Source: a virus
DNA length: 21,040 nucleotides
Strand: one strand, 5' to 3'
IMG/VR virus record: IMGVR_UViG_3300045902_000229
Coordinates: 1-21,040 of that record
Position numbers and translations under genes: made by a program. Below the pieces are notes generated by a model. The model ran no database searches. It saw only the letters and a list, made by a program, of their open reading frames with translations, and was not told the origin of the DNA. Shown here in pieces: positions 3,659 through 20,956 of this stretch. The stretch's first letter is position 1, and each line of letters opens with the position of its first letter.

Positions 3659-6351
3659 AATCGCCGAAATGATTTGTCATTATTATATTCCAACATTCCC
3701 ACTCGCATAAACTCAAGCATAGGGACATTAGCTTTTATATATATCGGCTGATTTATTACATATGGTTTAACAATCCCGCCAACTGAATATCTATTAGTCA
3801 ATGATTGCTGATTGTTGTTAATTGCTTGCAATAAAGGCAAGAATCTTCTTGTAGCATTCGCATTAACAACGTATTCGCCTGTTGATAGCATTGCAGGAAT
3901 ACTATCACTTACAGAAGTCCCAGCTCCTGTTACATAGCCGCCCCTTGCAAATCCTACGACTTTCAAGAAATCAACTATACTGCCTATAGTTTGAATACTT
4001 CTAATGATTGCTACAATACTTTCCATAATACTCGTTACTTTGTTAAACCCTGCTATCAATTGTCCTACGAATGTATGAGAACTGATATTTAACTCTTTCA
4101 TTATATTATCTACTTCATCGAATATATCTTTCGTGTTATTTAGAGCTTCGCGGCTTGCGTCTTCAATTATTTTTATTTTTTCTTCATCTGCTTCAGCGTA
4201 TTCAAATAATAATCTCTCTGCCATTCCCGAAGGTTTAATCGCAACAGGAGCACCCAAAGGTTCAACTCGTTCACGTAATGTTACGCCTGGAATATCCTCA
4301 AATGTCTTAGGTTGAAATAAACTAAATCCGAATTGTTTTAATTCTTCTTGAATATTTTTTATTGTTTGTAATAATTTAATTCTTTTTTCTATTGCTAAAT
4401 TTTCGCTGTCTTCTTTTTTTAAAATCGCAAGTTTCTGAAATAAAAATTCTTGATTAAGTTGTCCAAGTAATTTCTGTAACTCAATTTCGCTTGTTATTTT
4501 TTCAATTAATTCGCCTAAAATATCAACTTCTTCCTGCACTGATTTAACACGCGTGGAACCTGTTTTCTTTGATGATTCTAAAAATTTATCTTGTAGTTTT
4601 TTTAATTCTTCGGCTTCTTTACGTTCTTTAATACGATTTTGCAAAATCTCAACGCTTCTATCTGCTATTTCTTTGATTGGAGTCAGTCCTAATTCTTCAC
4701 TTGTCATAGTTGATATCTGAGTGCCTTCCCAGCCGAATAAGTCCCATTTTTCTTTTGTTTGTTTACTTGGCAAGAAAGTCTCCCAGCCTTCTTGCTTAAC
4801 TACATTAATTAATTCTTTAACTCCTATAACAATTGGAGTAATCATCGTGGCAACTGCTCCTAATGCTAATCCTACCTTACCTAATACAGGTAACAATGCT
4901 GTAAATGCCGCGGGGAATGCAATCTTAACCGATGCAATCACAGGAAGCAATGATGCTAATGCCGTTCCAATTCCGCCAATTGAAGCAATTGAAGACCTTG
5001 CTGATTCATCGCTTATACCTAATGCATCAATGAATTCTAATATTCCCTTAGCAACAATATTCCCGAATTCTAATCGTGTATTCTGTAATGCAGTTTGCAT
5101 TTGTCTTAGTCTATCTGCATTATCAAGCTGTTTCTTGTTAATAACATCAAGACTTCTCCCATATAACTCAATCATAGCCTTAGTCCTTAATCGTTGTTGT
5201 GTCTCGTCATCAAGTTTTCTAATCTGTTCTTCAGTCAGATTAGTCATCTCTTGAATCTTGTTATTGACAACAACGATATTAATACCCATTTGTTGCAGAC
5301 TTCTGCCAGCACCTGTCATTATGAATCGTTGAATAGCTTCTGTTGCATCATTGAACGTAATTCCAAGTCTATCACCTGCAACTTCTGCAATATCTAAGAA
5401 TTGCGCGGTCTGATTTGTATTGAAACCAAGCAACTTCATTCTGTTTGAATATTGAATTAACTGCTCATTATTCAGGCTGAACGCTGATGCTTTACCCAAT
5501 AATTCTAATTTATCGGTTGCTTTATCAATGCCTCCTTCAAGTTCAGCGAAGCTATTCAATAACACACCGAATTCAGCACCTTTCATTATTGTTGCACTTA
5601 TTGACCTTACAACCTCCCGCAGACCAGCCAGGATAACAGTTATATTCTGTCCATACTGCATAACCTTAGCTAATCCGCTTTGTGCCGTTGCGTTTATAGC
5701 AGATACAGTATCTATTCCTGATTGCTTGATTGTAGCACTTAACGCTTTCAATCTGTTAGCGTGTTGTGCTTCTACTCCAATTAGAGTTTTTAATTTATTT
5801 TCTAATTCAGCATATTGCGAAGTGTTCTGCTTGCCTTGTGAAGCTAACTTAGTTAATTCAGTAACAACACTTCTTATATCACCGCCTGTTTTTTGTAATA
5901 TTGATTGAATTTTTGAAAATTCAGCATTCTGCCTTGCATTAGTATTGATTAAGTCTTTTAATTTATTCTCTAATTCAGTAAATTGTGTAGTATTCTGCTT
6001 GCCTTGCGAAGATAGTTTAGATAATGAATTAACTACATTCTGTATCTCAGCATTAATTGCCGAACTGAATGCAGTTTTTAATGAAGCACTTAGTTTCTCT
6101 GTGAAACTTGGTAAGGTTCTGTATTCTTCACGCAACAACCTCATCTTCTCTTTATGCTGCGTTTCTAATTGTATCAGACTTCTTAATCGCTGTTCAAAAT
6201 GCTGATAATTTTTTGTATTCTCTTTTCCCGCATAACTTAAAGAAGTCAGAGCGTTCGAAATCGAACGAATTTCTTTTTGTAAATCTTTTAAAGGGTTTAA
6301 ATTGGCATTTAAAGTAATTTTTAACGCTTCAACTGTATCAGGGGCACCCAT
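3655..6351 (-). CDS. Tail tape measure protein
   Basis: At 898 residues this is the longest product in the window and the expected size for a tape measure, which sets tail length and is ejected with DNA. Residues 32-78, 103-153 and 160-210 are three related helical repeats with the core SQGKQNT followed by an ELENKLK-type segment, forming a coiled-coil N-terminus. A long Ala/Gly/Val/Ile-rich hydrophobic stretch spans about 453-515. Residues 800-840 contain the ARGGYVTG and LSTGEYVVNA motifs found near the C-terminus of many tape measures. It starts immediately after the VRR-NUC gene with no Shine-Dalgarno and overlaps the next tail gene by 4 bp. The spurious plus-strand ORFs opposite it reflect its composition. 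Confidence 0.93.
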   Translation of the reverse strand: MGAPDTVEALKITLNANLNPLKDLQKEIRSISNALTSLSYAGKENTKNYQHFEQRLRSLIQLETQHKEKMRLLREEYRTLPSFTEKLSASLKTAFSSAINAEIQNVVNSLSKLSSQGKQNTTQFTELENKLKDLINTNARQNAEFSKIQSILQKTGGDIRSVVTELTKLASQGKQNTSQYAELENKLKTLIGVEAQHANRLKALSATIKQSGIDTVSAINATAQSGLAKVMQYGQNITVILAGLREVVRSISATIMKGAEFGVLLNSFAELEGGIDKATDKLELLGKASAFSLNNEQLIQYSNRMKLLGFNTNQTAQFLDIAEVAGDRLGITFNDATEAIQRFIMTGAGRSLQQMGINIVVVNNKIQEMTNLTEEQIRKLDDETQQRLRTKAMIELYGRSLDVINKKQLDNADRLRQMQTALQNTRLEFGNIVAKGILEFIDALGISDESARSSIASIGGIGTALASLLPVIASVKIAFPAAFTALLPVLGKVGLALGAVATMITPIVIGVKELINVVKQEGWETFLPSKQTKEKWDLFGWEGTQISTMTSEELGLTPIKEIADRSVEILQNRIKERKEAEELKKLQDKFLESSKKTGSTRVKSVQEEVDILGELIEKITSEIELQKLLGQLNQEFLFQKLAILKKEDSENLAIEKRIKLLQTIKNIQEELKQFGFSLFQPKTFEDIPGVTLRERVEPLGAPVAIKPSGMAERLLFEYAEADEEKIKIIEDASREALNNTKDIFDEVDNIMKELNISSHTFVGQLIAGFNKVTSIMESIVAIIRSIQTIGSIVDFLKVVGFARGGYVTGAGTSVSDSIPAMLSTGEYVVNANATRRFLPLLQAINNNQQSLTNRYSVGGIVKPYVINQPIYIKANVPMLEFMRVGMLEYNNDKSFRRL

Positions 6352-6352
6352 T

Positions 6353-6691
6353 TTATTGTTTAGTTTTTAAGTTGTCAAAAAAATTTTTAAATTGTTCAAA
6401 CGATTTAACGATAATATAAATTCCACCTGATTTATTTACGTTTTGTTCAAAAACTTTTTGCCATTCACTTTGTTTGTCATAACCTTGTTTTATTTCAATT
6501 GCAATAAATAAGCCTTTATAGCAACAAATTAAATCAGATATACCTTTTTCATTATTGCGTCTATATACTTGTCTTACTGGATCAAACACCCCAATCGAAT
6601 TAACTCTAAAAGCATAACCGCCATTAAAACGGATATATTTTTTTATTGCTTGTGTAATTTCGTTTGTGTATGTTTTTTTTTGTCTATACAC
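6353..6691 (-). CDS. VRR-NUC domain nuclease
   Basis: This 112-residue protein matches the compact VRR-NUC (PD-(D/E)XK-like) fold: Glu11 in the first helix, then GISDLI (Asp53), then an IAIEIKQG strand with Glu66 and Lys68, and a WQKVFEQNVNKSGG segment (about 77-90) typical of the family's C-terminal helix. Members cleave structured or branched DNA and are common as stand-alone phage genes, usually near replication genes. Here the gene lies between the gp10-like protein and the tape measure, overlapping the former by 8 bp and starting with GTG. Its role in this position is unclear: resolution of branched DNA before packaging, or a homing-type insertion, are both possible. Confidence 0.85.
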   Translation of the reverse strand: MYRQKKTYTNEITQAIKKYIRFNGGYAFRVNSIGVFDPVRQVYRRNNEKGISDLICCYKGLFIAIEIKQGYDKQSEWQKVFEQNVNKSGGIYIIVKSFEQFKNFFDNLKTKQ

Positions 6692-7106
6692 GTTTAAAAA
6701 TTTTTAACTTCGTTAATGTATCTTTAATAAGTTTTCTATCTTTATCAGTGAGTTCAAAAAATTTTGTTCGTTTAATTCCTGAAACATAATGTCCTTTTGA
6801 AAAATATCTTTTACTGCCTTCTACCCAACTCAGAGCTTGTCTATTTACAGGTTCAATCCAATGTCTACGAGTTCCGTAATGCTGATAACTTGCAATTCGG
6901 TTAGCTTTATCTGTTCGAAAATAAATTTCATATCCGAATACAGTTTTTGTTTTTACAATTTGGTTTCGAGTATATCCTGTTTTTACAGGAGTGCGGTTTT
7001 TAATCTGCGTTTTAATTAACTCGGCTATCTTTGATATATGACTTTGAACTAACTCAGTATCGCTAATTTTAACACTAAACTTGTCAGGAAATTTAACTTC
7101 AAGCAT
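6684..7106 (-). CDS. HK97-gp10-like tail completion / head-tail connector protein
   Basis: This 140-residue protein carries the pattern RTPVKTGYTRNQ followed by YQHYGTRRHWIEP, an Ala/Leu/Trp segment, and SKGHYVSGIKRTKFF. That order (PVxTG, then a YGT...I.P.... block, then a His-Gly/Ile turn before a Phe-rich helix) is typical of the HK97 gp10 family, needed for completing head or tail joining. In HK97-like phages this gene usually precedes the major tail protein; here it follows the tail assembly chaperone. Its ATG lies inside the last codons of the frameshifted chaperone extension (8 bp overlap), linking their translation. Confidence 0.75.
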   Translation of the reverse strand: MLEVKFPDKFSVKISDTELVQSHISKIAELIKTQIKNRTPVKTGYTRNQIVKTKTVFGYEIYFRTDKANRIASYQHYGTRRHWIEPVNRQALSWVEGSKRYFSKGHYVSGIKRTKFFELTDKDRKLIKDTLTKLKIFKRV

Positions 7107-7871
7107 TTTTATTTAATTCTAATATTTCTTGTTCGCGTAATGCTTTTATATTTTCAAATATTAACATCCGCCAATAATCAATCTCATTTTTAGTCTTAAA
7201 CGCAAGATCGTAATCTATGTTATAATGCAGTGCGAGCTCGTGAGCCATAAACTGATATATGTATGTATCCGGAATATTATAAGAAGTATAATTACCTTTA
7301 AACGCAAACGAAAAGTCAGACTGTAACTTATTTACAATTGTCTTGCTGTAAAAATAATTGAAAAAAAATCTGTTATAACCTCTCTACAAAAGTTTAGAAT
7401 ATTTTCGCTTTCAAAATTAATCGGCTTAGATCCTTCAAGAATTTTATTAAACGATTTCTCAATTACAGCCCTTGAACTGATTAAGTCAAGCAACGCATAT
7501 GCTTTCATCTCTTGCTCGATATCGGCAATTTTTTTTAAATTTTGCTTAAAATATTCATTTTTTGCAGAAATTTTTTCTTCGATATCGTTCAAATGATTTT
7601 TTTTTTGCGTAACCTGAAGTTCGTCTATTGGATTGCCTTCTTCGTCAATTCTTGTTTCAAGAATTTTTTCAATTTGACTTTTCGCAATACTCAATTCATT
7701 CATTTCTTTTTCAAACATTCTTAACTCGTCGAGCTCAAGATGTTTTGTATATTCATATTCTTTACTCCTCAACTCTGCAAGTAACGGGACTGTCGCATTC
7801 AAGACCTCAAGAGTATTTCCTTTGAGTTTATATTCTTTATCGTCTAAGATATAAACTTTATTATTTTTCAT
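7099..7871 (-). CDS. Tail assembly chaperone, -1 frameshift fusion (gpGT-like)
   Basis: If ribosomes slip back one base at the T run (7361-7368), the product is 257 residues: 170 shared with the unshifted form plus 87 from the overlapping frame. That frame is open from 7383 to the TGA at 7099-7101 and encodes a convincing protein, including FSFAFKGNYTSYNIPDTY, then a MAHELALHYNIDYDLA stretch, then DYWRMLIFENIKALREQE. It has no plausible start of its own, so frameshifting is the natural explanation. It fills what would otherwise be a 225-bp gap before the gp10-like gene, with which it overlaps by 8 bp. Siphovirus tail chaperones are well known for making a low-level extended form this way. Confidence 0.85.
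7332..7871 (-). CDS. Tail assembly chaperone, unshifted form (gpG-like)
   Basis: This 179-residue, mostly helical and charged protein is encoded between the major tail protein and the tape measure, the conserved place for the gpG/gpGT chaperone pair. Residues about 50-125 look like a coiled coil. Near its end the coding strand has GAT TTT TTT TCA, an eight-T run allowing a -1 slip, and a second reading frame continues beyond. Without slippage translation ends at the TAA at 7332-7334. The start overlaps the preceding small gene by 11 bp. The role (holding tape measure and tail tube subunits during assembly) is inferred from position and the frameshift architecture; the sequence itself is not diagnostic. 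Confidence 0.75.
   Translation of the reverse strand: MKNNKVYILDDKEYKLKGNTLEVLNATVPLLAELRSKEYEYTKHLELDELRMFEKEMNELSIAKSQIEKILETRIDEEGNPIDELQVTQKKNHLNDIEEKISAKNEYFKQNLKKIADIEQEMKAYALLDLISSRAVIEKSFNKILEGSKPINFESENILNFCREVITDFFSIIFTARQL
7359..7370 (-). other. Programmed -1 frameshift slippery site
   Basis: On the coding strand the sequence is GATTTTTTTTCA. In the zero frame it reads GAT TTT TTT TCA; tandem slippage on T TTT TTT gives TTC AAT in the new frame. The site lies inside the 52-nt window (7383-7332) in which both frames are open. A weak 6-bp stem (TTTACA with TGTAAA, 7352-7347 and 7336-7331) lies about 10 nt downstream and may or may not act as a stimulator. Confidence 0.8.
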
Positions 7872-8024: not shown

Positions 8025-8031
8025 CCTCCTT
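8025..8031 (-). promoter_or_regulatory. Strong ribosome binding site setting the start of the 52-residue gene
   Basis: AAGGAGG on the minus strand ends 5 nt before the ATG at 8019-8017 and overlaps the TAA stop of the major tail protein gene. It decides the start of the small gene against a longer upstream reading. Confidence 0.8.
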
Positions 8032-8575
8032 ATACATTAGTTTCAACAATACAAAATTCTGTATTGTTTGTAATAGTAACGCTTGTAGCCCTAATTGTGA
8101 TACCCCATAGTGACGCAAGAGTTGCTAATGCTCCGCTTGTAAATGTTACTGTTGCATTTGGAGCAATGTTATTAAACTTTCCTTTAACAGCATTGGCTGC
8201 GCCTGGAGTTTTCATTTCTTGCATTCTAACAGGATTGCCGATCGCAAAATATTCTTTATGTTTCCCTCCTGCAATTCCTTCATAATGATATAATAATGAA
8301 GGCGAATTCATTGAGAATGCAAGATAATCTCTTGTTGCCTTGTCACTGTCCATTACTGTCCATTCAACTGCTGGCTCTTGCGAGCTTTCGGAATATCTAA
8401 CAATATTGTCTTCGCTTCTGAATTTTGTTTCCGATACGTTTGTAGTCTTCGTAACTTCACTAACATTCGGAAACTTATAACCGTTTACCCCGCTAGTATA
8501 CGATGTTAGTAAAGCATACGCGGATGTTAATTCTGCTAATGCAAGAATATTACCGCCTTTATCGTGGATTGCCAT
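8030..8575 (-). CDS. Putative major tail (tube) protein
   Basis: This 181-residue protein begins after a good Shine-Dalgarno (AAAGGAG), as expected for an abundant product. It is soluble, beta-rich and Thr/Ser/Ala/Gly-rich, with a central EPAVEWTVMDSDKATRDYL segment, a common sort of sequence in tail tube subunits, and an alternating strand-rich end. It lies upstream of the chaperone, the gp10-like gene and the tape measure, matching the usual tail module order. No sequence motif proves the identity; the call rests on position, size and expression signal. Confidence 0.68.
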   Translation of the reverse strand: MAIHDKGGNILALAELTSAYALLTSYTSGVNGYKFPNVSEVTKTTNVSETKFRSEDNIVRYSESSQEPAVEWTVMDSDKATRDYLAFSMNSPSLLYHYEGIAGGKHKEYFAIGNPVRMQEMKTPGAANAVKGKFNNIAPNATVTFTSGALATLASLWGITIRATSVTITNNTEFCIVETNV

Positions 8576-8581
8576 TTGAAT

Positions 8582-8827
8582 TTACTCCTTTCTTGAAGTT
8601 TTTAATTCATTATAAATTTTTTCTAATTTATCATTTATTTTTTCTAGACCGTTTTCAAGCCTAGTTACTCTTTCTTTTAAATAATTGATTTCAATCATAT
8701 TTTCTTTTTTATCACTCTCAACTCTTGCGTCAAGCCTTGTGTAAGTTACAATAAACCCTATTAATATAATAGCTAATTGCAGAATTGATTTGAAATCCCA
8801 ATTATTCCAAAAATTTTTTGTGTCCAT
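8582..8827 (-). CDS. Small membrane-anchored coiled-coil protein
   Basis: This 81-residue protein has one hydrophobic segment at about 13-30 (LQLAIILIGFIVTY) followed by a charged helix (about 45-77) with heptad-like spacing of Leu/Ile, ending ELKTSRKE. Such single-pass plus coiled-coil peptides occur in phages as XhlA-like accessory lysis proteins or as spanin-like proteins, usually with the coiled coil first; here the membrane segment comes first. It sits between the glycosyltransferase and the major tail protein, with no Shine-Dalgarno and one base after the previous stop. It might anchor the neighbouring glycosyltransferase or act in lysis; neither can be decided. Confidence 0.6.
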   Translation of the reverse strand: MDTKNFWNNWDFKSILQLAIILIGFIVTYTRLDARVESDKKENMIEINYLKERVTRLENGLEKINDKLEKIYNELKTSRKE

Positions 8828-8828
8828 A

Positions 8829-9770
8829 TTAGTTAAGATTTATATTATTAATTAACACGTCAAAGTTTAATCTGCTTTCGCCATTATTTATTATTCTTAA
8901 TAAATCGTTTTTAACTTGTTCTGCCTTCTTTAACTCGTTTATCAGAATAAAATATTCTCTCAATAATAAATATGCCCTATATTGTTGCGAACAACTTTCG
9001 ATTGACAACTTCAACCAATCAATAGCATTAATATTGCCAAGATTGTAATCAATTTCAAATAATAAGTTAAACATCTCAGCCTTTTGTTCAGGAATTAGTT
9101 TATTTTTCAACAAACATAGTAATGCATAATGTTTTGCAAACTCGTAATTATTCAATGTGTTATAACAATATGCCATCTGTCCTAATATATACGGGTTATC
9201 AGGTTCCTCTTGCAATTGTATGTAATGCAGTTCAAGCAATTGTTTTACTTTCTTTTTAATTTGACTTATATTTTTTTCTTTATGTTTTAAAAAAAGGTTG
9301 TCATACTTGCAAACTTTTAAGTTTTTATCTTCAAACTCTAATTGTTCGTGAACTCTGAACTTGAATTGTAATCCGCAATTCTTGAACAATCTCGGCGTCC
9401 ATAACTCAGTTATTAGTTTTTTGTTTTCATAATTTTTTTGTTTTAAAAATATTACATCGTAGTCTAACAATATATCATCTATTGTCCCTCTTAATTGTTC
9501 GTCGGCGTCAATAATTAAGATATACTCTTGTGTTGCTTGTGATATCGAGTAGTTCCTTGCATTGGCGAAATGATTATCCCAGGCGTAATGATATAACTTA
9601 ACTACTAACTCAGGACTATCATTCTTAAAGCGTTCAACTTCTTGAATTGTATTATCCTCAGAACCAGTATCAACGAGAATAATCTCTGTTACGATATTTT
9701 TGACTGAGTTAAGGCTATCGTAGATATTATTTTGTTCATTCTTAACTATGTAACAGGCTGATATATTCAT
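8829..9770 (-). CDS. Family 2 glycosyltransferase with TPR-like C-terminus
   Basis: This 313-residue protein has a GT-A fold signature: ISACYIVKNEQNNI (residues 3-16) at the nucleotide-sugar binding strand, VDTGSEDNT (33-41), ANARNYSIS (69-77), and a DAD metal-binding motif at 88-90 followed by EQL. RLFKN and FRVHEQLEF (127-146) are typical of the 'glycosyltransferase plus TPR' group related to SunS and cell-surface sugar transferases. Residues about 175-290 form helical repeats resembling TPRs, which often hold a protein acceptor. There is no membrane segment. The start codon overlaps the QueC stop by one base (TAATG), so the two are co-translated. Likely roles are glycosylation of a virion protein or the host surface; sugar transfer onto modified DNA is a speculative alternative. 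Confidence 0.85.
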   Translation of the reverse strand: MNISACYIVKNEQNNIYDSLNSVKNIVTEIILVDTGSEDNTIQEVERFKNDSPELVVKLYHYAWDNHFANARNYSISQATQEYILIIDADEQLRGTIDDILLDYDVIFLKQKNYENKKLITELWTPRLFKNCGLQFKFRVHEQLEFEDKNLKVCKYDNLFLKHKEKNISQIKKKVKQLLELHYIQLQEEPDNPYILGQMAYCYNTLNNYEFAKHYALLCLLKNKLIPEQKAEMFNLLFEIDYNLGNINAIDWLKLSIESCSQQYRAYLLLREYFILINELKKAEQVKNDLLRIINNGESRLNFDVLINNINLN

Positions 9771-10432
9771 TATGTTTTATATTTTGTGTTATCATTTATT
9801 TTTGCCATACTAAATGCTTCCTTCCTAGCAACACAGGTTCCGCACTCTCCGCAATGCAGTAGTTTACCTTCATAACAACTATAAGAGATTAAACTTAAAT
9901 CATAAGGTAATTTTAATTTATTCCATTCGTTGATAATTTCATATTTCTGATAAGAAACAAACGGGACTATTAGTTTAACGCAGTTACTTGTGCCTTTTTC
10001 GATTGCCGAAAACATTGCTTTATTAAACGCTGTCCTGCAATCTGGATAGATAGCGTGGTCTCCTGAATGTGTGCCAATTAATATTTTTTTTAATCCTATG
10101 TTATCAGAAATGGCCGCCGCAATCGATAACATTACGCCATTGCGGAACGGAATAACTGTATCTCGCATTATGATATCCTGATAATGGCCTTTTGGTATAT
10201 TTTTGTTTTTATTTATCAACGCGGTTTTCATATTCTTAAACAAGAATGATATATCTATTACCTTATGTTTTATCATAAGTTTCTGGCAATTCATTCTAGC
10301 ATACTTTAATTCTTGTTTGTTATGCTTGCCCCCATAATAAAAACTTAACGCTAGTGCAATATCATTCTTATATTTATATAACATCACAGTGCTGTCTACC
10401 CCTCCGGAATATATTATACAACTATCTTTCAT
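9770..10432 (-). CDS. queC: QueC, 7-cyano-7-deazaguanine (preQ0) synthase
   Basis: This 220-residue protein has all the hallmarks of QueC, the ATP-dependent ligase that converts 7-carboxy-7-deazaguanine and ammonia to preQ0. The PP-loop SGGVDS is at residues 9-14, IPFRNG at 94-99 and GTHSGDHAIYPDCR at 120-133. Four cysteines form the zinc site (C186, C194, C197, C200, in SYSC and HCGECGTC). It appears intact. A strong AGGAGGGG Shine-Dalgarno precedes it, inside the end of the upstream gene. preQ0 feeds queuosine/archaeosine tRNA modification and, in several phages, 7-deazaguanine modification of genomic DNA through DpdA-type transglycosylases. No queD, queE, folE or dpdA lies in this window, so partners must be elsewhere in the phage or supplied by the host. 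Confidence 0.95.
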   Translation of the reverse strand: MKDSCIIYSGGVDSTVMLYKYKNDIALALSFYYGGKHNKQELKYARMNCQKLMIKHKVIDISFLFKNMKTALINKNKNIPKGHYQDIIMRDTVIPFRNGVMLSIAAAISDNIGLKKILIGTHSGDHAIYPDCRTAFNKAMFSAIEKGTSNCVKLIVPFVSYQKYEIINEWNKLKLPYDLSLISYSCYEGKLLHCGECGTCVARKEAFSMAKINDNTKYKT

Positions 10433-10434
10433 AT

Positions 10435-11979
10435 TTATGCCCCTCCTATTTGTGTTAGATAATTATAAACTAAATTATAAAAACTACTGTGTTCGCTTGC
10501 AGATAAGGAACTTCCAACAAATGCGAATGCGTATTGTTTGTTGCAGAAACGGTCAATCGTCCCATTGAAGTTTCTTGCACCGATTGTGAACGCAAATTCT
10601 CCTAACCCGCTTGAAGGAATTGACGCTGTTCCGATTGACACTCCATTGCGATATACCTTATATTGACTTGAACTATGTCTATCAATTGCAAACATACCGA
10701 TTGAATTTGAGTTAGCGTAGTTTGGAGTTGAACCGTTGTCGTTAATCGAAGTATATAACTGATTACTCCAACGGATATATAGCATTGAATAACGACTTGA
10801 TACAGTTGTCTCTGCACAACCCATATCAACACTGCTTGCAGTTTCGTTATAGTTTGTATTGCAATACAAACCGAAACTTGCAGAGTTCAATGAATAACTC
10901 AATTGATGTGCGGGGGCTGTCCCTGTTTTAAGATACATATTACTTCCGTTGCCTTTGTATCCTTTATTAATTGTGAATGTTATCGAATTAACAGGAATTA
11001 GATTAAATTTATTTCGTTTCAAATTCTTGCAAGCTTGCTGTTCAGTCTCTGCCGCCATTATCCATATACAATCTAACTTATCCCATATTCCTAATGATTT
11101 CAAATCAGTAATTAAACTATTCATTAATTCAATTCTTGATTGTGAAGGTTGCGGAGTTAAACCTTGCAACCAATATTGCAAGTCAGTATCGTAATTATTT
11201 TCATTAACAATAAAACTTCTGACTTCGCTGAACTGTGAGTTACCGGAAATATTCTTAGCCCTTACTCTCCAATAATATGTATTATTATTAATTAATGATA
11301 AGTCAAGCGGTATAGTATAGCTTGAAGTCCTTAAATTGTCTTGCGAAACAAATATATCTTGAAAGTCAATATCGTTAGCAATTTGAATTTCATAACATTC
11401 TGCATTCGCATTCCAATTAAATTCTTGCCGTAACTTACCTGAATTAAATAAGTTAGCAGGATATAATAATATTGGAACATCAGGCAAAGGCTGCTGTTCG
11501 GAATTAGTGCTTTCGTAATATTCAATCCTTGCAGTAATTAATATAGAGCCTGCGTTGCTCTCTATGTCAAAAGGTTGTATGTTCTCAATAATAAGGTTTG
11601 TAGCGTATTCGTTGTTTGTCCTGTCTTTAATCTTGTAATATTCAAAACAATGTTGTTTCCAAGAATGTAAAAATGCTTTTGCGTCGTGGATGACTTTCTC
11701 GTATAAGGCTAAAACTTCATTAACAAGGTTATTTTCGTTGCAAGTGAAATAAAATAAAAAATTAATTTCGCTTATGCATTTATGTAGTGAGTTATTTTCG
11801 TCGGCATTATCAATTGTCTCGCTTCCTAACCAATAACAAACGCAAGGCAGATTAATCCCTTGCGTTAAATCGCGATACCCGAGAATAAAGTTCCAATCAA
11901 AATTGTAACCGTTTGAGACTTTTAACTTTTGCAAGTCAATCTCAAGTTGTATAAAAATATTTTCTCGGAACGTAGACAA
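10435..11979 (-). CDS. Putative tail terminator with FnIII and LamG-like C-terminal domains
   Basis: This 514-residue protein appears to have three parts. Residues 1-155 (RENIFIQLEIDLQKLKV, later LPCVCYWLGSE, then alternating strands and helices ending ARIEYYE) resemble tail terminator or tail completion proteins. Residues about 168-258 form an FnIII-like domain: FNWNANAECYEIQIAND, then NNTYYWRVRAKNISG and a closing SFIV strand. Residues about 260-320 are a helical linker. Residues about 330-514 look like a concanavalin/LamG-type jelly roll (KGYKGNGSNMYLKT near its start, MFAIDRHSSSQYKVYRNG in the middle, a SLSASEHSSFYN helix at the end). It lies after the connector and before QueC. The tail domains may decorate the head-tail joint and bind surface sugars. 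The terminator call is from N-terminal character and gene order. Confidence 0.6.
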   Translation of the reverse strand: MSTFRENIFIQLEIDLQKLKVSNGYNFDWNFILGYRDLTQGINLPCVCYWLGSETIDNADENNSLHKCISEINFLFYFTCNENNLVNEVLALYEKVIHDAKAFLHSWKQHCFEYYKIKDRTNNEYATNLIIENIQPFDIESNAGSILITARIEYYESTNSEQQPLPDVPILLYPANLFNSGKLRQEFNWNANAECYEIQIANDIDFQDIFVSQDNLRTSSYTIPLDLSLINNNTYYWRVRAKNISGNSQFSEVRSFIVNENNYDTDLQYWLQGLTPQPSQSRIELMNSLITDLKSLGIWDKLDCIWIMAAETEQQACKNLKRNKFNLIPVNSITFTINKGYKGNGSNMYLKTGTAPAHQLSYSLNSASFGLYCNTNYNETASSVDMGCAETTVSSRYSMLYIRWSNQLYTSINDNGSTPNYANSNSIGMFAIDRHSSSQYKVYRNGVSIGTASIPSSGLGEFAFTIGARNFNGTIDRFCNKQYAFAFVGSSLSASEHSSFYNLVYNYLTQIGGA

Positions 11980-11982
11980 TTA

Positions 11983-12684
11983 TTATATGTTAAAATTACG
12001 ATAATGATTAAGTATTGAGTTATGTCTTTCGTTAATTAAACTTCTATCTTGTAACGCAAATGCTTTTGTAGCTTGTCCTCCAAAGTCTTTTTGTGTTAAT
12101 CCAAACCAACCTAGACTTTCGCTAGAATTATAAAAGTCAATTACTGCCTGTTCAACTGCCACTTGCTTTAAGTCGTTCGGTATTATTGATAAACCGCCAG
12201 TATAAATTATTTTATACGTTTTGCCAGCCTCTATTGAATAACCTTTTAACAAAGTAACATAATTTCCTAACACAGTTGAGTTTGCGGCGTTATCTGGATG
12301 TTCGAATATTGTGTCAAACACACCAGTATCCTCATCTAATAATTGAATATCACTAACAGCAGTTACAGGATATTCTTTTGTTGCAATCCTGTTTGTGTTT
12401 TCAATATAAATAAACTGTTCTGTATAATTGTCTAATACAATCTTTCTATTGCAGTAGTTCTGAATATAAGCAACTCCGTTTTGCAATGAATTATATAACT
12501 GCGAAACACGCCATTTGTTACTTGCCAAGTCTGCTGTGAATGCTGTTGATGTGTGTGAAACTATACATATATAAATTATTCCTCCGTATTGAATATAATT
12601 CTGGCCTGCATTGTATTGAATGCCTGTTTGCCAGTTTGGAACATCTTTTTTTAAATATGTAATTAACTCGTTAATTGTTATCAC
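11983..12684 (-). CDS. gp6-like head-tail connector with inserted carbohydrate-binding-like segment
   Basis: This 233-residue protein starts with GTG, overlapping the previous TGA by 4 bp. Its core resembles gp6-type connectors: MITINELITYLKK at the N-terminus, then LQNGVAYIQNYCNRKIV (about 67-83), a strand-rich middle (ATKEYPVTAVSDIQLLDED), YKIIYTGGLS, and a final helix where LKQVAVEQAVIDFY leads to a Trp/Gly-rich end. Between helix 1 and helix 2, residues 17-60 insert a stretch with W, YNAG, YGGIIYICIVSHTS and NKWRV. That spacing of aromatic residues is typical of the small CBM5/12-like chitin-binding fold used in phage fibres. The protein should close the portal and join head to tail; the insertion may expose a small binding module on the virion. 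Confidence 0.7.
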   Translation of the reverse strand: MITINELITYLKKDVPNWQTGIQYNAGQNYIQYGGIIYICIVSHTSTAFTADLASNKWRVSQLYNSLQNGVAYIQNYCNRKIVLDNYTEQFIYIENTNRIATKEYPVTAVSDIQLLDEDTGVFDTIFEHPDNAANSTVLGNYVTLLKGYSIEAGKTYKIIYTGGLSIIPNDLKQVAVEQAVIDFYNSSESLGWFGLTQKDFGGQATKAFALQDRSLINERHNSILNHYRNFNI

Positions 12685-12989
12685 AATTCTTTTAATAAAT
12701 TTTTTGCAATTTTTAAAATTGTTTCAAAAAATTTTTTAATTTCTTTCGGAAGGTATTCGGAAACTTCATTAAAAATTTTTTCCGTTTGCTCTATAAACTT
12801 TTCAATATCTGATTTAACTTCTTTATGACTTAATATCAATTCAAGTTTGCGTTTATGTTCATCACAGAGGTTAGTATATGTTCTAATCAATTCATACTTG
12901 TCTTGAACTTCATCGGATTGCGAAGACCAATATTCAATTGCTTCATTGCATTGATTAATTAGATATTGATACAATACCGCCCCGTTCAT
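12681..12989 (-). CDS. Small helical protein of unknown function in the head-tail module
   Basis: Starting from the ATG at 12987-12989 the product is 102 residues (MNGAVLYQYLINQCNEAIEY...). This start was chosen because AAGGAG lies 10 nt upstream; the longer reading from 13037 would overlap the upstream membrane-peptide gene out of frame. The protein is almost all helix: an N-terminal segment with LINQCNEAIEYWSSQSDEV, a central Lys/Glu-rich helix, and an amphipathic end rich in Lys, Phe, Ile and Leu. It overlaps the connector gene by 4 bp. No family is recognised. Its place between capsid and connector fits a head completion or scaffold-type role, but that is only context. Confidence 0.6.
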   Translation of the reverse strand: MNGAVLYQYLINQCNEAIEYWSSQSDEVQDKYELIRTYTNLCDEHKRKLELILSHKEVKSDIEKFIEQTEKIFNEVSEYLPKEIKKFFETILKIAKNLLKEL

Positions 12990-12996
12990 ATTATTT

Positions 12997-13176
12997 TTAC
13001 TCCTTCCTTGCTTTAATACCGATACCTGTTGTGTCATAATCTTTTGAAAGTAACGCTACTGTGCAGATTACAGCACCGATTATGACATCCTCCGGCAAGT
13101 CAAGTTGTGTGTATCTATTAATTAATATAGCAATATAACCAGCTAATGCAGCGATTGTTGTTTTATAATTTTTCAT
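12997..13176 (-). CDS. Two-pass small membrane peptide, holin-like
   Basis: This 59-residue reading frame fits exactly in the gap between its neighbours. The ATG is at 13174-13176 and the TAA at 12997-12999. It encodes a short Lys-bearing N-terminus, a hydrophobic segment TIAALAGYIAILI, a polar turn RYTQLDLPED, a second hydrophobic segment VIIGAVICTVALL, and a polar end SKDYDTTGIGIKARKE. The two-helix hairpin with a final KDxxxTG motif matches a common class of small phage proteins often labelled holin or hypothetical. It overlaps the 62-residue gene by 14 bp and contains the Shine-Dalgarno of the next gene. No endolysin is nearby, so a lysis role is unproven. Confidence 0.75.
   Translation of the reverse strand: MKNYKTTIAALAGYIAILINRYTQLDLPEDVIIGAVICTVALLSKDYDTTGIGIKARKE
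13000..13005 (-). promoter_or_regulatory. Ribosome binding site setting the start of the 102-residue gene
   Basis: AAGGAG on the minus strand lies 10 nt upstream of the ATG at 12989-12987, within the last codons of the membrane-peptide gene. It supports the shorter start. Confidence 0.7.
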
Positions 13177-13351
13177 AGTTTTTATTTTTTAACTTTGTAA
13201 TCATTTTATTTTTTAATTCTTTCGGAAATTGTTTCAACTCAATTAATCCTTCGAGTTGTTTAGCCCGTTGTTCGCTAAGTTCGATAACTGAACCTACGGT
13301 ATACAGTATACCGTTTTCTGTTATTTGTTTTATTACTTTATATTTTTTCAT
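13163..13351 (-). CDS. Small protein with ELSEQ motif, downstream of capsid
   Basis: This 62-residue protein starts KKYKVIKQITENGILYTVG, then VIELSEQRAKQLEGL and a Lys-rich tail. It resembles small SH3-like phage proteins found after the capsid gene, and shares the ELSEQ-A pattern with the 52-residue protein after the major tail gene. The ATG at 13349-13351 has an A/T-rich leader without Shine-Dalgarno. It overlaps the membrane-peptide gene by 14 bp. The function is unknown; a structural or decoration role is possible. Confidence 0.65.
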   Translation of the reverse strand: MKKYKVIKQITENGILYTVGSVIELSEQRAKQLEGLIELKQFPKELKNKMITKLKNKNYEKL

Positions 13352-13364
13352 AAACTTTAATTAA

Positions 13365-13416
13365 TTAAGGCAGGGAAAAGGAAAACAATGATAAAAAAAA
13401 GGAAACCCTGCCTTAA
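13365..13416 (-). terminator. Inverted repeat downstream of capsid (possible attenuator or processing site)
   Basis: A perfect 11-bp inverted repeat (TTAAGGCAGGG at 13365-13375, CCCTGCCTTAA at 13406-13416) encloses a 30-nt loop between the capsid stop and the next start. On the transcribed strand the loop is T-rich, but only TTAATTAAAG follows the stem, so it is not a textbook intrinsic terminator. A partial terminator or RNA-end stabiliser that raises capsid mRNA over downstream genes would fit. Confidence 0.5.
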
Positions 13417-13430
13417 ATTGACCTGTGTTA

Positions 13431-14603
13431 TTATGACGCAGGCAATTTTAACACTGAATACCCAGCAGTTAAACCTGCATTAAACGCAATCCTTTCAACT
13501 ACTCTGAATGCTGTTAAATCGTATTGAGCTAATGAAGTGCCATCTATAGTTGCCTCGGTTAAAACCTTAACAGTCAAGTCTTGTTTTGTTCCAATATAAG
13601 AATTCATAGTATTCCCGAACACTGCAATGATACTACCGCCTTCGGCAGCACTTGTTGGAGCGTTCTGAATTAACTTAACGGGATATCCCAATAAATTTCC
13701 CGGAGAACTCTCAGACATAGAAGCTTGGAATATTGGCATTCCATTGCTATCACTAATATTACGTATGACACTCATTATCGTAGGATGTAATAACCAGCTT
13801 GCGTTTGTTGCATAGTTTTGGTCAATGCCGTAAATTACGTCAAGCAGGTTCTTGTAAGTCAGTGTAGTAATACCTCCTGATAACGTAACAGTGTTCCCGA
13901 ACGTATGTGTATTACTGAATAACCCTGTAAACGGAGAGCCAGTCCCTTTGAACATTGCAATATCTTCTCCGATACCGAATATCTGAGCGAACTTCTTCAT
14001 TAGATATTCTCCTAATGATACATTAGCGTCGTCAAGTAATTCGTCTGATACTACTACAATTGCGGCAGCTTTTTTTGCTATCAAGTTTATTATATCGATT
14101 GTAGGTTTACTTGAAGTTTTTTCTGCCGCTTCGTCTAACCAATATAAGTTCGGGGCTGTTCCTTCTTTCGGTAGTTTTATAATATTACTTTTGCCCATCG
14201 GTATTTGTTGAAATACTTGCCTTGCTTGACCATAAGTAGGGATTAACCCTTCGATAGTTGCAACTGTTACTGCAGGAACAAGATAACCGCCATCACTTGC
14301 AACTCCTTCAACCATTGGACTTGCCGCCTTCTCGTTAATTTCTTTAATTGTTTTATAGTCATCGTGTCTAATCGCCTTTAGTAGTCTAACGAAATCATTA
14401 CTATCTTGTTTATTCTGTGTAACATTTATATTGCTATAATCTTTTGGTAAAGATCTTATAGCATTTTTAACAGCTTCTTTAACTTGTTCGTCAATACTTT
14501 TTTTATCTTGTAATTCAATTAACTCCTGAACTTCATCGTTTGTTAATGTTTCAGCATTTTTTTGTTTTAATTCGTTTAGTCGTTTTAATTCTTTGTCATT
14601 CAT
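13431..14603 (-). CDS. HK97-fold major capsid protein
   Basis: This 390-residue protein has a charged helical N-terminus (about 1-92; delta-domain-like), then SDGGYLVP at 103-110, the typical start of the mature HK97-type subunit. VVVSDELLDDANVSLGEYL and a following helix with IGEDIAMFKGTGSPFTGLF match the spine helix and P-domain of HK97-like capsids. Near the end there are YPVKLIQNAP-type and LTAFRVVERIAF-type strands. The protease is encoded just upstream, which fits cleavage of the N-terminal domain, probably around residues 93-102 (inference). It has no Shine-Dalgarno; its leader is TTTTTAAAAAAATG, an A-rich start fitting a host that depends little on Shine-Dalgarno. Confidence 0.93.
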   Translation of the reverse strand: MNDKELKRLNELKQKNAETLTNDEVQELIELQDKKSIDEQVKEAVKNAIRSLPKDYSNINVTQNKQDSNDFVRLLKAIRHDDYKTIKEINEKAASPMVEGVASDGGYLVPAVTVATIEGLIPTYGQARQVFQQIPMGKSNIIKLPKEGTAPNLYWLDEAAEKTSSKPTIDIINLIAKKAAAIVVVSDELLDDANVSLGEYLMKKFAQIFGIGEDIAMFKGTGSPFTGLFSNTHTFGNTVTLSGGITTLTYKNLLDVIYGIDQNYATNASWLLHPTIMSVIRNISDSNGMPIFQASMSESSPGNLLGYPVKLIQNAPTSAAEGGSIIAVFGNTMNSYIGTKQDLTVKVLTEATIDGTSLAQYDLTAFRVVERIAFNAGLTAGYSVLKLPAS

Positions 14604-14658
14604 TTTTTTAAAAAGTTTAAGTTTATAAAATAATAATAAGCTAATATCTCCATCGGCA

Positions 14659-15405
14659 CTAACGCCGACTGATATCTCCGCTTTTGATTTGTTTAATTAA
14701 TAATTTTTTTAACTTATTGTTTATATCAATCTGTTTTTCGAGTTCGGATTTTAAAATTCCAATTTCCTTTTCATATTCATCTTTTTTATTTGAATTTTTT
14801 AACTCTTTATAAACTTCTTCAATCGTTTTTTTAATTAATTTCAACTCGTCAAGTTGTTTTTGGAAATTGTTTTTTTCAATCTCAAAGTTCAAAATACTTT
14901 TGAGTTGTAAACTTTTTGAGTTTTCAAACATTATATTAACAGCGTTCGGATTAGCTGGGATTATCACACTTGAATACTCGTATAAGTTCCAACTATGATA
15001 TACTTTAACTCCGTCTTTGCGAACTTCAGGTTCTTGCTTCGGCAGCCAACCAACACTCCAAGAATTAATTAAACCAAGTCTGTTAAACTCCATTATGTCA
15101 TTCCCAAGTTCGGAATTAACGAATTGCGTTTTCGCTTTTACTCCTTCATTGGTTGCCTTACGCCATAATGACTTGCCGATTACAATATCAGAAGGTTTTG
15201 CAACGGTATCAAAAATTAAATTATTGCCTAAAGAGTGAGACCATAGAACAGCCTTGAATGTGCTATCGTCCATACCTTTCGGCATTAATACTTCGTTATA
15301 GCTATCAATATCCGGAGTTGATATCCAATGAACTAAAGTTCGTTCGTTTAAATTAAATTCTTTTTCTTCGGAATTGATTACTTTATAGTTCATTTTAGTT
15401 TTCAA
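14659..15405 (-). CDS. HK97-type prohead protease (S78) with C-terminal scaffold-like coiled coil
   Basis: This 248-residue protein has the prohead protease pattern: VLWSHSLG with His57, a loop LGLINSWSVGW with the expected catalytic Ser117, and a strand WNLYEYSSVIIPANPNA with Glu143. Residues about 165-245 are a long Lys/Glu/Leu coiled coil, absent from the shortest proteases, which may serve as an internal scaffold in the procapsid. No separate scaffold gene is visible between portal and capsid, which supports that idea. It overlaps the portal by 11 bp. It ends KSGDISRR; a small hairpin straddles its stop codon. Confidence 0.9.
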   Translation of the reverse strand: MKTKMNYKVINSEEKEFNLNERTLVHWISTPDIDSYNEVLMPKGMDDSTFKAVLWSHSLGNNLIFDTVAKPSDIVIGKSLWRKATNEGVKAKTQFVNSELGNDIMEFNRLGLINSWSVGWLPKQEPEVRKDGVKVYHSWNLYEYSSVIIPANPNAVNIMFENSKSLQLKSILNFEIEKNNFQKQLDELKLIKKTIEEVYKELKNSNKKDEYEKEIGILKSELEKQIDINNKLKKLLIKQIKSGDISRR

Positions 15406-16549
15406 TTAATTTTTTAATTTCATTTTCTAAACTAATTTCATTAATCGGTTCATATCCTTCGAGTTCTCTTACTTCATTAACAGTTAGCCAACCATTACGT
15501 AATCCGTTTTCATAATATTTTAAATTGAGTTCTATGTCTCTTGTAGCCATTGTATCGTGTTTAATATAATATTCGTCGCCGTTATCATATTCATAACATA
15601 TATTATTAGTTAATACTTCGTCAAAGTAATTTAGTATAGGGTCAATGACAGTAGTATAAAATACATATAACACAGTATCTGCATTGCCCCTCTGTATATT
15701 CTCGGACTGTCCTAACAACAACTTATTAACCTTAAATGCTGAACAGATCTCATCTCTATTCAATTGCCGTTCTTGTGTCATCTGCATATCTCTTAATGAG
15801 TAAGCCGTTGGAATTGGCTTTAGTCCTTGTTCGAATAAAGCAACCTGAAACGCATTCTCTGAGCCTCCATATCTATCTTTTAATTGCTGCAATGCTCTGT
15901 TAAAATTCTCGTTGCTCATTTTTTGTTCCGTCGTAAAAGTTGCTCCGAGAAAACCTCCTTGCTGATAAAATTTCTTGCGATATTCTAATTGCAGGGCTTC
16001 TACATCTTGAAGTGCCTTAATTCTGGATATTATAGGAGAGCCTTTAATATGATTGCTGTAGTCAATAGTTTTGAAATGAATTATATCCTTAGCAGGAAAC
16101 TTAATCATATCAACTCCTGTGTTGTATACATAATTATCAATCCTCTCAATACCGATAGGCTCAGTAGTAATTCTGTCAGGATGTAATTGATATAATCCAA
16201 CTAACTCGTCGTTATCGTTACGCAACTTCAATAAATATGAATTTCCATCAATTGCTAAATCTAAAGCCCAGCGATATTTAATTTCCCAAAACGTTTGGAA
16301 TATATTTGGAATTTTAAATAAATTATTTATCTTATGAATAACTTCCTTGTTATTCGAATATTTATAAACTCTAAACTTTGCCTTGGCAAACTGTATGCCC
16401 CATATATCAATACAAGCTCCGATATATCCTGTGTTAGCATCAGGCTTGAATGAAAGCAGCCAGTTATTAAAAATATTTTTAAACTGTCCGCTACTTAGCG
16501 GAATTGATTTTTTATTAAATTTAAAAATATTTTTAAAACTAAACTTCAT
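15395..16549 (-). CDS. Portal protein (HK97 family)
   Basis: This 384-residue protein forms the dodecameric ring through which DNA enters and leaves the head. Features seen include ACIDIWGIQFAKAKFRVY near the N-terminus, the helix and loop GGFLGATFTTEQ, KDRYGGSENAFQVALFEQGL followed by PIPTAYSLRDMQ, an ERQLNRDEICSAFKV segment leading to LLGQ, and NADTVLYVFYTTVIDPIL. These follow the usual order of the HK97 portal family. Its ATG overlaps the TGA of the preceding ParB-like gene (ATGA), so the two are coupled. Its length is normal for the family. Confidence 0.93.
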   Translation of the reverse strand: MKFSFKNIFKFNKKSIPLSSGQFKNIFNNWLLSFKPDANTGYIGACIDIWGIQFAKAKFRVYKYSNNKEVIHKINNLFKIPNIFQTFWEIKYRWALDLAIDGNSYLLKLRNDNDELVGLYQLHPDRITTEPIGIERIDNYVYNTGVDMIKFPAKDIIHFKTIDYSNHIKGSPIISRIKALQDVEALQLEYRKKFYQQGGFLGATFTTEQKMSNENFNRALQQLKDRYGGSENAFQVALFEQGLKPIPTAYSLRDMQMTQERQLNRDEICSAFKVNKLLLGQSENIQRGNADTVLYVFYTTVIDPILNYFDEVLTNNICYEYDNGDEYYIKHDTMATRDIELNLKYYENGLRNGWLTVNEVRELEGYEPINEISLENEIKKLIEN

Positions 16550-16749
16550 TTAATGTTTAATAAAAATTCTTCTCTGACTTCTTTTTCAAAGAAAATTCCT
16601 TTCAAGGCAATAGTTATCATTTCGCCGTTCTTTTTAAATTCCGTTAAACTTTTTTTTAACTTCCGATAACTTACTTCGGATATCTTGCGAGGGTTTTTGG
16701 AATTAATATTAAGTTGATTAACTTTCAGTTCTTTTATTTCTGTTTTCAT
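16546..16749 (-). CDS. Truncated ParB-like N-terminal domain, first gene of late operon
   Basis: This 67-residue protein begins IKELKVNQLNINSKNPRKIS, followed by YRKLKKSLTEF. That matches the start of phage ParB/Srx-type domains (a strand, an NPR motif at 19-21, then a KSLxEF helix). The rest of the domain, including the region that would carry the nucleotide-binding GNxR-type motif, is missing, and the C-terminus (EMITIALKGIFFEKEV...) does not continue the fold. I saw no continuation in the other two frames. Full-length ParB proteins, often with methyltransferases, are commonly found near terminase genes in phages. The promoter lies directly upstream and the stop is coupled to the portal start, so it may now work mainly as a leader for the late operon. 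Confidence 0.6.
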   Translation of the reverse strand: MKTEIKELKVNQLNINSKNPRKISEVSYRKLKKSLTEFKKNGEMITIALKGIFFEKEVREEFLLNIK

Positions 16750-16750
16750 A

Positions 16751-16817
16751 ACGCAAATATAACTAAAATTTTACCGTCTTGTCAATAGTTATGTTACAAG
16801 ATACGTTTAATTTGCGT
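16751..16817. promoter_or_regulatory. Nested inverted repeats over the late promoter (operator candidate)
   Basis: Two nested inverted repeats lie here. TCTTGT (16777-16782) and ACAAGA (16796-16801) flank the minus-strand TTG element. ACGCAAAT (16751-16758) and ATTTGCGT (16810-16817) bracket the whole promoter, one arm overlapping the TAnnTTTG box. Both would suit dimeric repressor or activator binding, but no regulator is identified. Confidence 0.4.
16754..16785 (-). promoter_or_regulatory. Late-operon promoter, Bacteroidota type, likely leaderless
   Basis: On the minus strand there is TTG (16785-16783), a 21-bp spacer, then TATATTTG (16761-16754), a full match to TAnnTTTG. Only 4 nt separate the motif from the ATG at 16749, so transcription would begin at or beside the start codon. 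It would drive the whole leftward structural operon. Confidence 0.65.
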
Positions 16818-16882
16818 TTATATCGCTTATAACACGTTTTTTTACGCCAAGTAGAGTAAAACTTCAAAATTGAGACAAACTC

Positions 16883-16913
16883 TTGTTATAAATCATTTAT
16901 TACATTATTTTTG
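16883..16913 (+). promoter_or_regulatory. Terminase promoter, Bacteroidota type, likely leaderless
   Basis: TTG (16883-16885), a 20-bp spacer and TATTTTTG (16906-16913) match the TTG/TAnnTTTG promoter. The ATG of the small terminase gene begins at 16917, 3 nt after the motif. This mirrors the divergent late promoter. Confidence 0.65.
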
Positions 16914-16916
16914 TGT

Positions 16917-17342
16917 ATGTATCTGGAAAAGTTTAGTCCTAAATTCATAAAAAAAATCAAAAAGCAGTTAAAACTATATATTGACGAATCACAATTACCG
17001 CGATTAACTGAATTTTGTCATTCGTTAGGAATTTCTAAACATAAATTAAAAGAATTAATTAAACTAGCTTCCACGGGAGATTTAAAATATCCGCAAGAAA
17101 CATATTCGGATATTGAAGACATTAAGGAACTAATTAAAATACTTAACGAAAAGTTTAGTGATGTAATTTTAGTAAGAGGTTTGTTTAATAAGTTTAATGC
17201 GAAGTTAGTTGAAAGAAATCTTGAACAGCTCGGAGAATTAACTCCAACTAAACAATTGATAGAAACCGAAAACAAAAATATTAATATTGATATAACGCAA
17301 CAGATAGTAGACGCGTTAGATAAAAAAATATTTGAGGATTAA
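16917..17342 (+). CDS. Terminase small subunit
   Basis: The product is 141 residues from the ATG at 16917. An upstream in-frame TTG at 16911 was rejected because it overlaps the promoter box. Residues about 27-50 (LPRLTEFCHSLGISKHKLKE) form a helix-turn-helix typical of small terminases that recognise packaging sites. Next comes a helical central part (DIEDIKELIKILNEKF), and the C-terminus NIDITQQIVDALDK may contact the large subunit. It is followed after 3 nt by the large subunit. The assignment rests on the HTH, size and the direct link to the ATPase gene. Confidence 0.8.
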   Translation: MYLEKFSPKFIKKIKKQLKLYIDESQLPRLTEFCHSLGISKHKLKELIKLASTGDLKYPQETYSDIEDIKELIKILNEKFSDVILVRGLFNKFNAKLVERNLEQLGELTPTKQLIETENKNINIDITQQIVDALDKKIFED

Positions 17343-17345
17343 AAA

Positions 17346-18545
17346 TTGAAGTTACTTCCCTACCAAAAAGAAATAATTAATAATAATCATAGATTATTGC
17401 AAGTTGTTAAGTCAAGACAAATAGGATTATCATTTGCGTTTGCTTATAGGGCACTTCGAAATTGTTTAAAATATAATACAGAACAAATAATATTATCTGC
17501 GTCATTTCGTCAGTCGTTAAGAGTAATGGGTTATATTGAATTGCTTCTAACGGTAATGCCGCGGGAATTAAAATTAATAACTGATAAACAGCAAGAAAAA
17601 AAATTTGCATTCAATAACAAATCAATCTACTGTCTACCGCAGAACTCATTAACTATTACAGGATTTTCCGGAGATATATTCTTAGACGAGTTCGCTTTAT
17701 ATAAAAAACCTGATTTAATTTATACTGCTGCCTTCCCTACGATTACTAGAGGATATTCATTATTATTGTGTTCAACTCCTTTAGGCAAGAATAATTTATT
17801 CTATGAAATATATACAAACAGAGATAAATATAAAGATTTTAATAGAAAAGTAATAACGATATATGACGCAATTAGACAAGGTTTAAAAATTGATTTAGAC
17901 TTATTAAAAAATAATATTGATAATGTCTCATTCGAACAAGAATATAATTGTTCGTTCGAAGAGGATAAAGATAGTTATTTCAGTTTATCTGAACTAAACG
18001 AATGTTTAATTGATTATGAGTTCAATTCTAAACCAATAAAATATTATATAGGAATTGATATCGGCAGAAAACACGATAAAACAGCTATTACAATTTTATC
18101 GGAAGAAAAAAATTTTTTTTATATAACTGACATAATAACCTTAGACAATGTTAATTTTTCTCAACAAAAGTCTGTAATAGAAAAATTAATTAATCAATAT
18201 GAACCGCACAAAGTCATAATCGATAAAACAGGAATTGGAATGCAGTTATGCGAAGAACTTGAGAATAGGTTTGGGTTTGTTCAAGGTATTATTATGAATA
18301 ATAAAATTAAAAATGATATAATAACATTCGGAAAAAAAATTATTGAAACAAAAAAATTAAAATTCGATAACGAAAAAATTATATACGAGTTATTATCAAT
18401 TAGAAAAAAGTTTCTCAACTCTACAATTATTTATTCAGCTAACCGCAATACCGAAGGTCATAGTGATATAGCATTCTCAATCCTTTATAGCATTTACGCT
18501 GTCAAACAAGAAGAGTTAACGGAAATTAAAATTGCGTTCGTTTGA
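17346..18545 (+). CDS. Terminase large subunit (ATPase and nuclease)
   Basis: This 399-residue DNA packaging motor appears complete. The ATPase has a variant Walker A KSRQIGLS (22-29), Walker B IFLDEFA with Asp114 and Glu115, and a coupling motif CSTPLG (142-147). The RNase H-like nuclease has three expected acidic residues: Asp238 in YIGIDIGRKHDKT, Asp293 in VIIDKTGIG and Asp374 in GHSDIAFSI. The start is TTG at 17346, 3 nt after the small subunit stop and without Shine-Dalgarno; the next in-frame ATG would remove the Walker A motif. It is transcribed away from the head and tail genes, separating packaging from the structural operon. Confidence 0.93.
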   Translation: MKLLPYQKEIINNNHRLLQVVKSRQIGLSFAFAYRALRNCLKYNTEQIILSASFRQSLRVMGYIELLLTVMPRELKLITDKQQEKKFAFNNKSIYCLPQNSLTITGFSGDIFLDEFALYKKPDLIYTAAFPTITRGYSLLLCSTPLGKNNLFYEIYTNRDKYKDFNRKVITIYDAIRQGLKIDLDLLKNNIDNVSFEQEYNCSFEEDKDSYFSLSELNECLIDYEFNSKPIKYYIGIDIGRKHDKTAITILSEEKNFFYITDIITLDNVNFSQQKSVIEKLINQYEPHKVIIDKTGIGMQLCEELENRFGFVQGIIMNNKIKNDIITFGKKIIETKKLKFDNEKIIYELLSIRKKFLNSTIIYSANRNTEGHSDIAFSILYSIYAVKQEELTEIKIAFV

Positions 18546-18562
18546 CTTGTATTGATAAATTC

Positions 18563-18717
18563 CATTATGTAAAAGTTATGTAAAATTGTTTTTTTAAAAT
18601 TACATAAAATAAGTTTATCAAAAAACAATTAATTAAACGCATTATGTAAAAGTTATGTAAAATTGTTTTTTTAAAATTACATAAAATAAGTTTATCAAAA
18701 AACAATTAATTAAACCC
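18563..18717. repeat. 77-bp tandem direct repeat with partial third copy
   Basis: Two copies with a 77-bp period (18564-18640 and 18641-18717) are identical for 76 bases, differing at 18639 versus 18716. A degenerate third copy begins at about 18718. Each full copy holds three octamers: TTATGTAA, TTATGTAA 11 bp later, and TTACATAA a further 24 bp on. The near identity suggests a recent duplication. Confidence 0.95.
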
Positions 18718-18765
18718 AATTATGTAAAATTATGTGAAAAATTCCTATATCTTTTTATATTATAA

Positions 18766-18796
<31 letters not shown>

Positions 18797-18862
18797 AAAA
18801 AAAATTACATAATTTATATAATTTTTTTGAAAAATAGAATAAAATTAAAAAAAATATCCGAA

Positions 18863-18910
18863 AAACCAATTTTACATAAAATTCAGTAATTAAAGATAAA
18901 ACATTGGTTT
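18863..18910. repeat. Inverted repeat AAACCAAT / ATTGGTTT
   Basis: AAACCAAT (18863-18870) and ATTGGTTT (18903-18910) are perfect 8-bp arms 32 bp apart, enclosing one TTACATAA octamer. They precede the densest octamer cluster (18916-18954). It could be a protein-binding pair or structure in the origin. Confidence 0.5.
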
Positions 18911-19151
18911 AAAAATTACATAAAGTTTTACATAAGTTTTACATAATTACATAACATTTGTATTAAGTCAATTAACTTAACGTTTATATATTAAAGCAAA
19001 TTATTCTTAACTCAATAAAGTAATCCATTAATATGTAATTTTTTTTCTTCGAACAAAATTATGTAAAATTAAAATTACATAATTTCATTCAATTTATCAA
19101 TTTTTACATTTTTAATTAACAAAACTAACTTTATTTTTTTGATAAAAAAAA

Positions 19152-19535: not shown

Positions 19536-19536
19536 A

Positions 19537-20952: not shown

Positions 20953-20956
20953 ACGA

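Follow-up and report, generated by a model that had tools for sequence, protein, structure and literature searches.

In phages, FolE, QueD, QueE, QueC and DpdA together lead to DNA carrying dPreQ0 (Hutinet et al., PMC6884629), and 74 of 79 other viral relatives of the queC described here have one or more of dpdA, queD, queE and folE within 6 kb, usually abutting it. The order parB-dpdA-queC-queD-queE-folE recurs, both in Arthrobacter phage Sonali and in a gut contig where it lies beside terminase and portal genes. In 33 of 56 viral dpdA loci (e.g. L006, L009, L010 and L027), dpdA is immediately preceded by a ParB-like gene, whose product is possibly a DNA-binding partner of DpdA; ParBc proteins are also found near other DNA-modification genes (PMC12783734). 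Phage-encoded glycosyltransferases modify virions in mycobacteriophage Che8 and its relatives, according to work cited in PMC11256854.

The window analysed here is a metagenome contig of 21,040 nt (IMG/VR record IMGVR_UViG_3300045902_000229) in which queC and a GT2 glycosyltransferase gene lie within a tail module, in the order head-tail adaptor, 514-aa protein, queC, GT2, 81-aa membrane protein and putative major tail protein (Table 1). As the original prediction stated, queC is intact and overlaps GT2 by one base, with a TAATG stop/start that has base 9770 in common. The pair was proposed to lie between a tail terminator candidate and the major tail protein, which is correct as to the region, although GT2 is separated from the putative major tail gene by the 81-aa gene, and the 514-aa protein is a putative tail terminator assigned solely from gene order. 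The gene for the latter has a TTG start and a C-terminal part with Ig/FN3-like and LamG-like regions (a domain reading made partly by eye), such that a putative tail-terminator gene is seemingly fused to these domains. Elsewhere in the module, the tape-measure gene contains an internal direct repeat (5780-5881 versus 5948-6049, 81%).

Table 1. Features of the window, with coordinates, strand and supporting evidence.
Feature	Coordinates	Strand	Evidence
Putative major tail (tube) protein	8030-8575	minus	BLASTP 3e-10 to L106:6984-7517
81-aa single-TM coiled-coil membrane protein, weakly holin-like	8582-8827	minus	weak holin PHROGs
GT2 glycosyltransferase, 313 aa, GT-A domain and C-terminal TPR-like helices	8829-9770	minus	PF00535 1.4e-16
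queC, 7-cyano-7-deazaguanine (preQ0) synthase, intact, 220 aa	9770-10432	minus	PF06508 6.6e-50; TIGR00364
Structural protein of 514 aa, immediately preceding queC	10435-11979	minus	PF24489 (weak); phrog_18498, phrog_26223
Head-tail adaptor	11983-12684
Portal; downstream of the lost cassette, the first gene to be intact	15395-16549	minus	TIGR01537 4.6e-38
Fusion scar ORF, ParB-like residues 1-40 in frame with the last 27 FolE residues	16546-16749	minus	comparison with L006/L003
Junction of the deletion: microhomology TTAAAAAGA (9 bp) within an imperfect direct repeat of 13/14 nt	16629-16637	minus	L006 longer by 2,491 bp here

The queC product scores 150.7 bits against TIGR00364, just above the cut-off of 150.3, keeps the ATP-PPase P-loop SGGxDS (here SGGVDS) and the zinc cysteines C186, C194, C197 and C200, and has two QueC crystal structures as its best PDB matches. 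By these features it is a genuine QueC. Two related defence proteins were considered and rejected, a QatC-type protein on a score of 23 bits against a QatC cut-off of 280, and a Cap9-type protein on a Cap9 match weaker than those to the true QueC structures; a PADLOC scan of the neighbouring genes also found no defence set. Close relatives of queC, GT2 and the MCP among viral contigs are restricted to near-identical siblings, and a scan of genome contigs with QueC gave no close relative.

The four partner genes were thought to be absent from view, and this is nearly right: a search of the window in six frames gave no match to DpdA, and an HMM scan for FolE, QueD and QueE recovered only the last 27 codons of folE (open frame 16549-16770, E = 1.2e-6). 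This remnant led to an explanation of why the partners are missing. When viral contigs were scanned with the window MCP, a sibling was identified, IMG/VR 3300045912_000210 (L003; the whole contig is L006), in which all four genes are present. The sibling matches window positions 11624-16642 with 99.96% identity over 5,019 bp, with one SNP (16382) and, at the junction, one gap of a single base (16638), and positions 16629-21040 with 100% identity over 4,412 bp, giving one SNP in 9.4 kb overall. At one place only, between parB and the portal gene, it is longer by 2,491 bp, corresponding to the rest of the ParB-like gene, dpdA, queD, queE and almost the whole of folE. This intact form gave rise to the window form by deletion, and not the reverse, because one end of parB and one end of folE survive in the window, fused. 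Given how often a ParB-like gene precedes dpdA, the deletion also broke a recurrent ParB-DpdA pair. We sought to extend the genome past its known ends, and no contig matched the left end of the window, while the other end matched only the sibling itself; the genome is incomplete, its known part amounting to about 22 kb, and a second dpdA could be located elsewhere.

A third contig, 3300044961_000047 (L002), has queC, GT2 and a junction that is base-for-base identical to that of the window, and the window contig and L002 are likely to be independent contigs. L002 starts exactly 127 bases from the point at which the two forms diverge, and the match of the window to the sibling continues for 4,285 bases further upstream. 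As JGI-type metaSPAdes assembly uses k up to 127 (PMC11584781), L002 starts at a branch k-mer, as is expected if both forms are in the sample, and the natural reading of this branch in the assembly graph is that the two forms co-exist there.

In the intact form, parB, dpdA, queD, queE and folE are on the same strand just upstream of the portal gene, and dpdA and queD abut with a 4-bp overlap. The 250-aa DpdA-type transglycosylase of the sibling matches phrog_887 (1.6e-23), its model has a pLDDT of 81, and a viral library gave fold matches to phage queuine/DpdA-type transferases, including that of Sonali (1e-7). Residues D36 (in DSGAF) and D183 (in SxDST) are invariant in 20 sequences, and the family aligns weakly with E. 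coli Tgt (hhalign E = 0.013) with both catalytic motifs in register; a fold search of the PDB returned general TIM-barrel matches only, with no TGT among the 50 best. QueD (PF01242, 5.7e-26), QueE (phrog_2076, 2.9e-33, with CxxxCxxC) and FolE (PF01227, 2.3e-45) all keep their conserved catalytic residues. The proposed link between queC and 7-deazaguanine DNA modification is thus borne out by the genes of the sibling, which together with queC provide the same minimal enzyme set as the described dPreQ0 system (PMC6884629). Unlike in that system, queC lies apart from the other genes, among tail genes, and the window form is without dpdA, queD, queE and most of folE. The cassette has the order seen in Sonali, with a ParB-like gene immediately before dpdA here as well, except that the usual site of queC between dpdA and queD is vacant and queC is found in the tail module. 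The intact form is predicted from these genes to make 7-cyano-7-deazaguanine (dPreQ0) DNA, and probably does so. The sibling contig reaches only to window position 11624, leaving 1.2 kb between its end and queC, and we therefore infer the presence of queC and the cassette in one intact genome from the 99.96% identical backbone and the 127-base branch of L002.

We favour the interpretation, at a probability of roughly 0.7, that the window phage is a recent deletion derivative of a phage with a complete preQ0 DNA-modification pathway, and that GT2 lies outside this pathway. The ancestor would have been a siphovirus-like phage with the full pathway, its queC about 6 kb downstream of the cassette and flanked by tail genes of the same series. 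FolE, QueD, QueE and QueC would convert GTP to preQ0, DpdA would swap guanine for preQ0 in replicated phage DNA, and the resulting dPreQ0 would shield the DNA from restriction. Deletion at the 9-bp microhomology then removed the cassette, leaving the ParB::FolE scar and a leftover queC that, alone, is unable to cause modification. Our verdict is that a known kind of DNA modification was split and then lost by recent deletion, and that the adjoining glycosyltransferase is unrelated.

The alternative that survives best, while still unlikely, is that the deletion form continues to be modified, with host enzymes or a co-infecting intact sibling supplying DpdA and precursors, and that queC is still used. 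Both forms appear to share a sample and queC is intact, as such a scheme would have it, but SNPs are nearly absent, in line with a deletion so young that queC has had no time to decay. It is slightly more doubtful that both forms are kept in one population, the deletion phages acting as cheats that are modified in trans by the DpdA and precursors of the intact sibling during co-infection, with queC useful to both. QueC is a housekeeping enzyme of the Q pathway in many bacteria, in keeping with a role for the phage gene in host tRNA queuosine or preQ0 supply and not in phage DNA, but dpdA and the other pathway genes are present in the sibling, and we consider such a role improbable.

The GT2 product has a DxD motif (D88/D90) and H141 that are invariant in 24 aligned sequences, and its closest PDB matches by sequence are GmaR (1.4e-17) and SunS (1.4e-10). 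A Foldseek search with its AlphaFold model (pLDDT 91) places SunS/ThuS best (SunS 3e-19, TM 0.70), with the next family at 4e-9. These nearest solved relatives, the glycocin S-glycosyltransferases SunS and ThuS and the flagellin glycosyltransferase GmaR, are all peptide or protein glycosyltransferases, and at the level of the fold GT2 has the GT-A domain, DxD and TPR-like C-terminal helices of this type; with the NCBIfam SunS equivalog it scores 45 bits, below the cut-off of 350. Unlike SunS, ThuS and GmaR, it sits in a phage tail module, and no bacteriocin or flagellin gene was recognised nearby. The same placement is seen in one relative only, L106 (IMGVR 3300043409_001130), which has no queC and carries two SunS-like GT2 genes with TPR parts (3897-4898 and 6001-6999) in its head-tail module. 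The second of these runs into the first bases of a gene (6984-7517; BLASTP 3e-10) homologous to that of the window's putative major tail protein, with a TMP homologue downstream; head or portal genes adjoin some GT2 genes elsewhere. The GT2 enzyme of the tail module therefore probably glycosylates proteins or peptides, as suggested by its modelled structure, and our best guess is that it is a soluble protein O/S-glycosyltransferase acting on a tail or other virion protein as putative acceptor. It resembles the Che8-type systems, as these are cited in PMC11256854, in its proposed role, that of a phage enzyme glycosylating virion proteins.

The original prediction raised a preQ0-based modification with a further sugar step, with two unrelated accessory genes as a fallback, and it is the fallback that now reads better. 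If queC and GT2 were a unit, QueC would make preQ0 and GT2 would add a sugar to the 7-deazaguanine base in DNA, and the co-directional genes, their overlap and the displacement of queC from its usual site are all consistent with this. However, conserved adjacency was looked for from both genes and found from neither: GT2 is adjacent to queC in none of the 79 other viral queC loci (any GT2 is present in 5 of these records, the nearest about 7 kb away), and no que gene is within 6 kb in any of 79 other viral GT2 loci. The fold nearest to peptide glycosyltransferases also argues against a unit, as does the chemistry, since preQ0 itself has no hydroxyl for O-glycosylation. A sugar-modified deazaguanine made via queC and GT2 was rejected on the lack of conserved adjacency from either side, the two genes forming a unit is highly improbable, and GT2 is probably an independent gene of the tail module, unrelated to DNA modification. 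Equally hard to credit is that the cassette is missing through an artefact of assembly or library and that the window phage really has dpdA through folE. A metagenome contig with repeat-like sequence at the junction might raise this suspicion, but a second contig shows the identical junction, and the exact repeat, at 9 bp, is much shorter than assembly k.

It is easy to mistake an orphan que gene in a phage contig for a new pathway or a metabolic gene, and the window provides a base-level case of an orphan queC arising through recent loss of a whole modification cassette in an otherwise near-identical phage. The cassette-bearing and cassette-less pair constitutes a natural knockout for the cost and benefit of DNA modification in the wild. 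With the SunS-like glycosyltransferase of the tail module separated from the modification pathway, virion protein glycosylation becomes its candidate role.

In single-gene trees of moderate support, FolE clusters with L027, as does QueE, QueD with L053 and QueC with L017, which suggests, with modest support, that queC was acquired separately and favours piecemeal assembly of the pathway over a single move. L017 (IMGVR 3300035698_006584, 5941-7738) itself carries an orphan viral queC, 51% identical to that of the window, with no folE, queD, queE or dpdA within 6 kb; it adjoins a gene for a 375-aa DUF5591 protein with an archaeosine-synthase-type domain (PF17884, 2.9e-7). In L015 (IMGVR 3300006751_001918, 6576-7337), a QueC-like P-loop domain is seemingly fused behind a membrane-type N-terminal part, and the fusion gene adjoins dpdA in a phage contig that also has folE, queD and queE.
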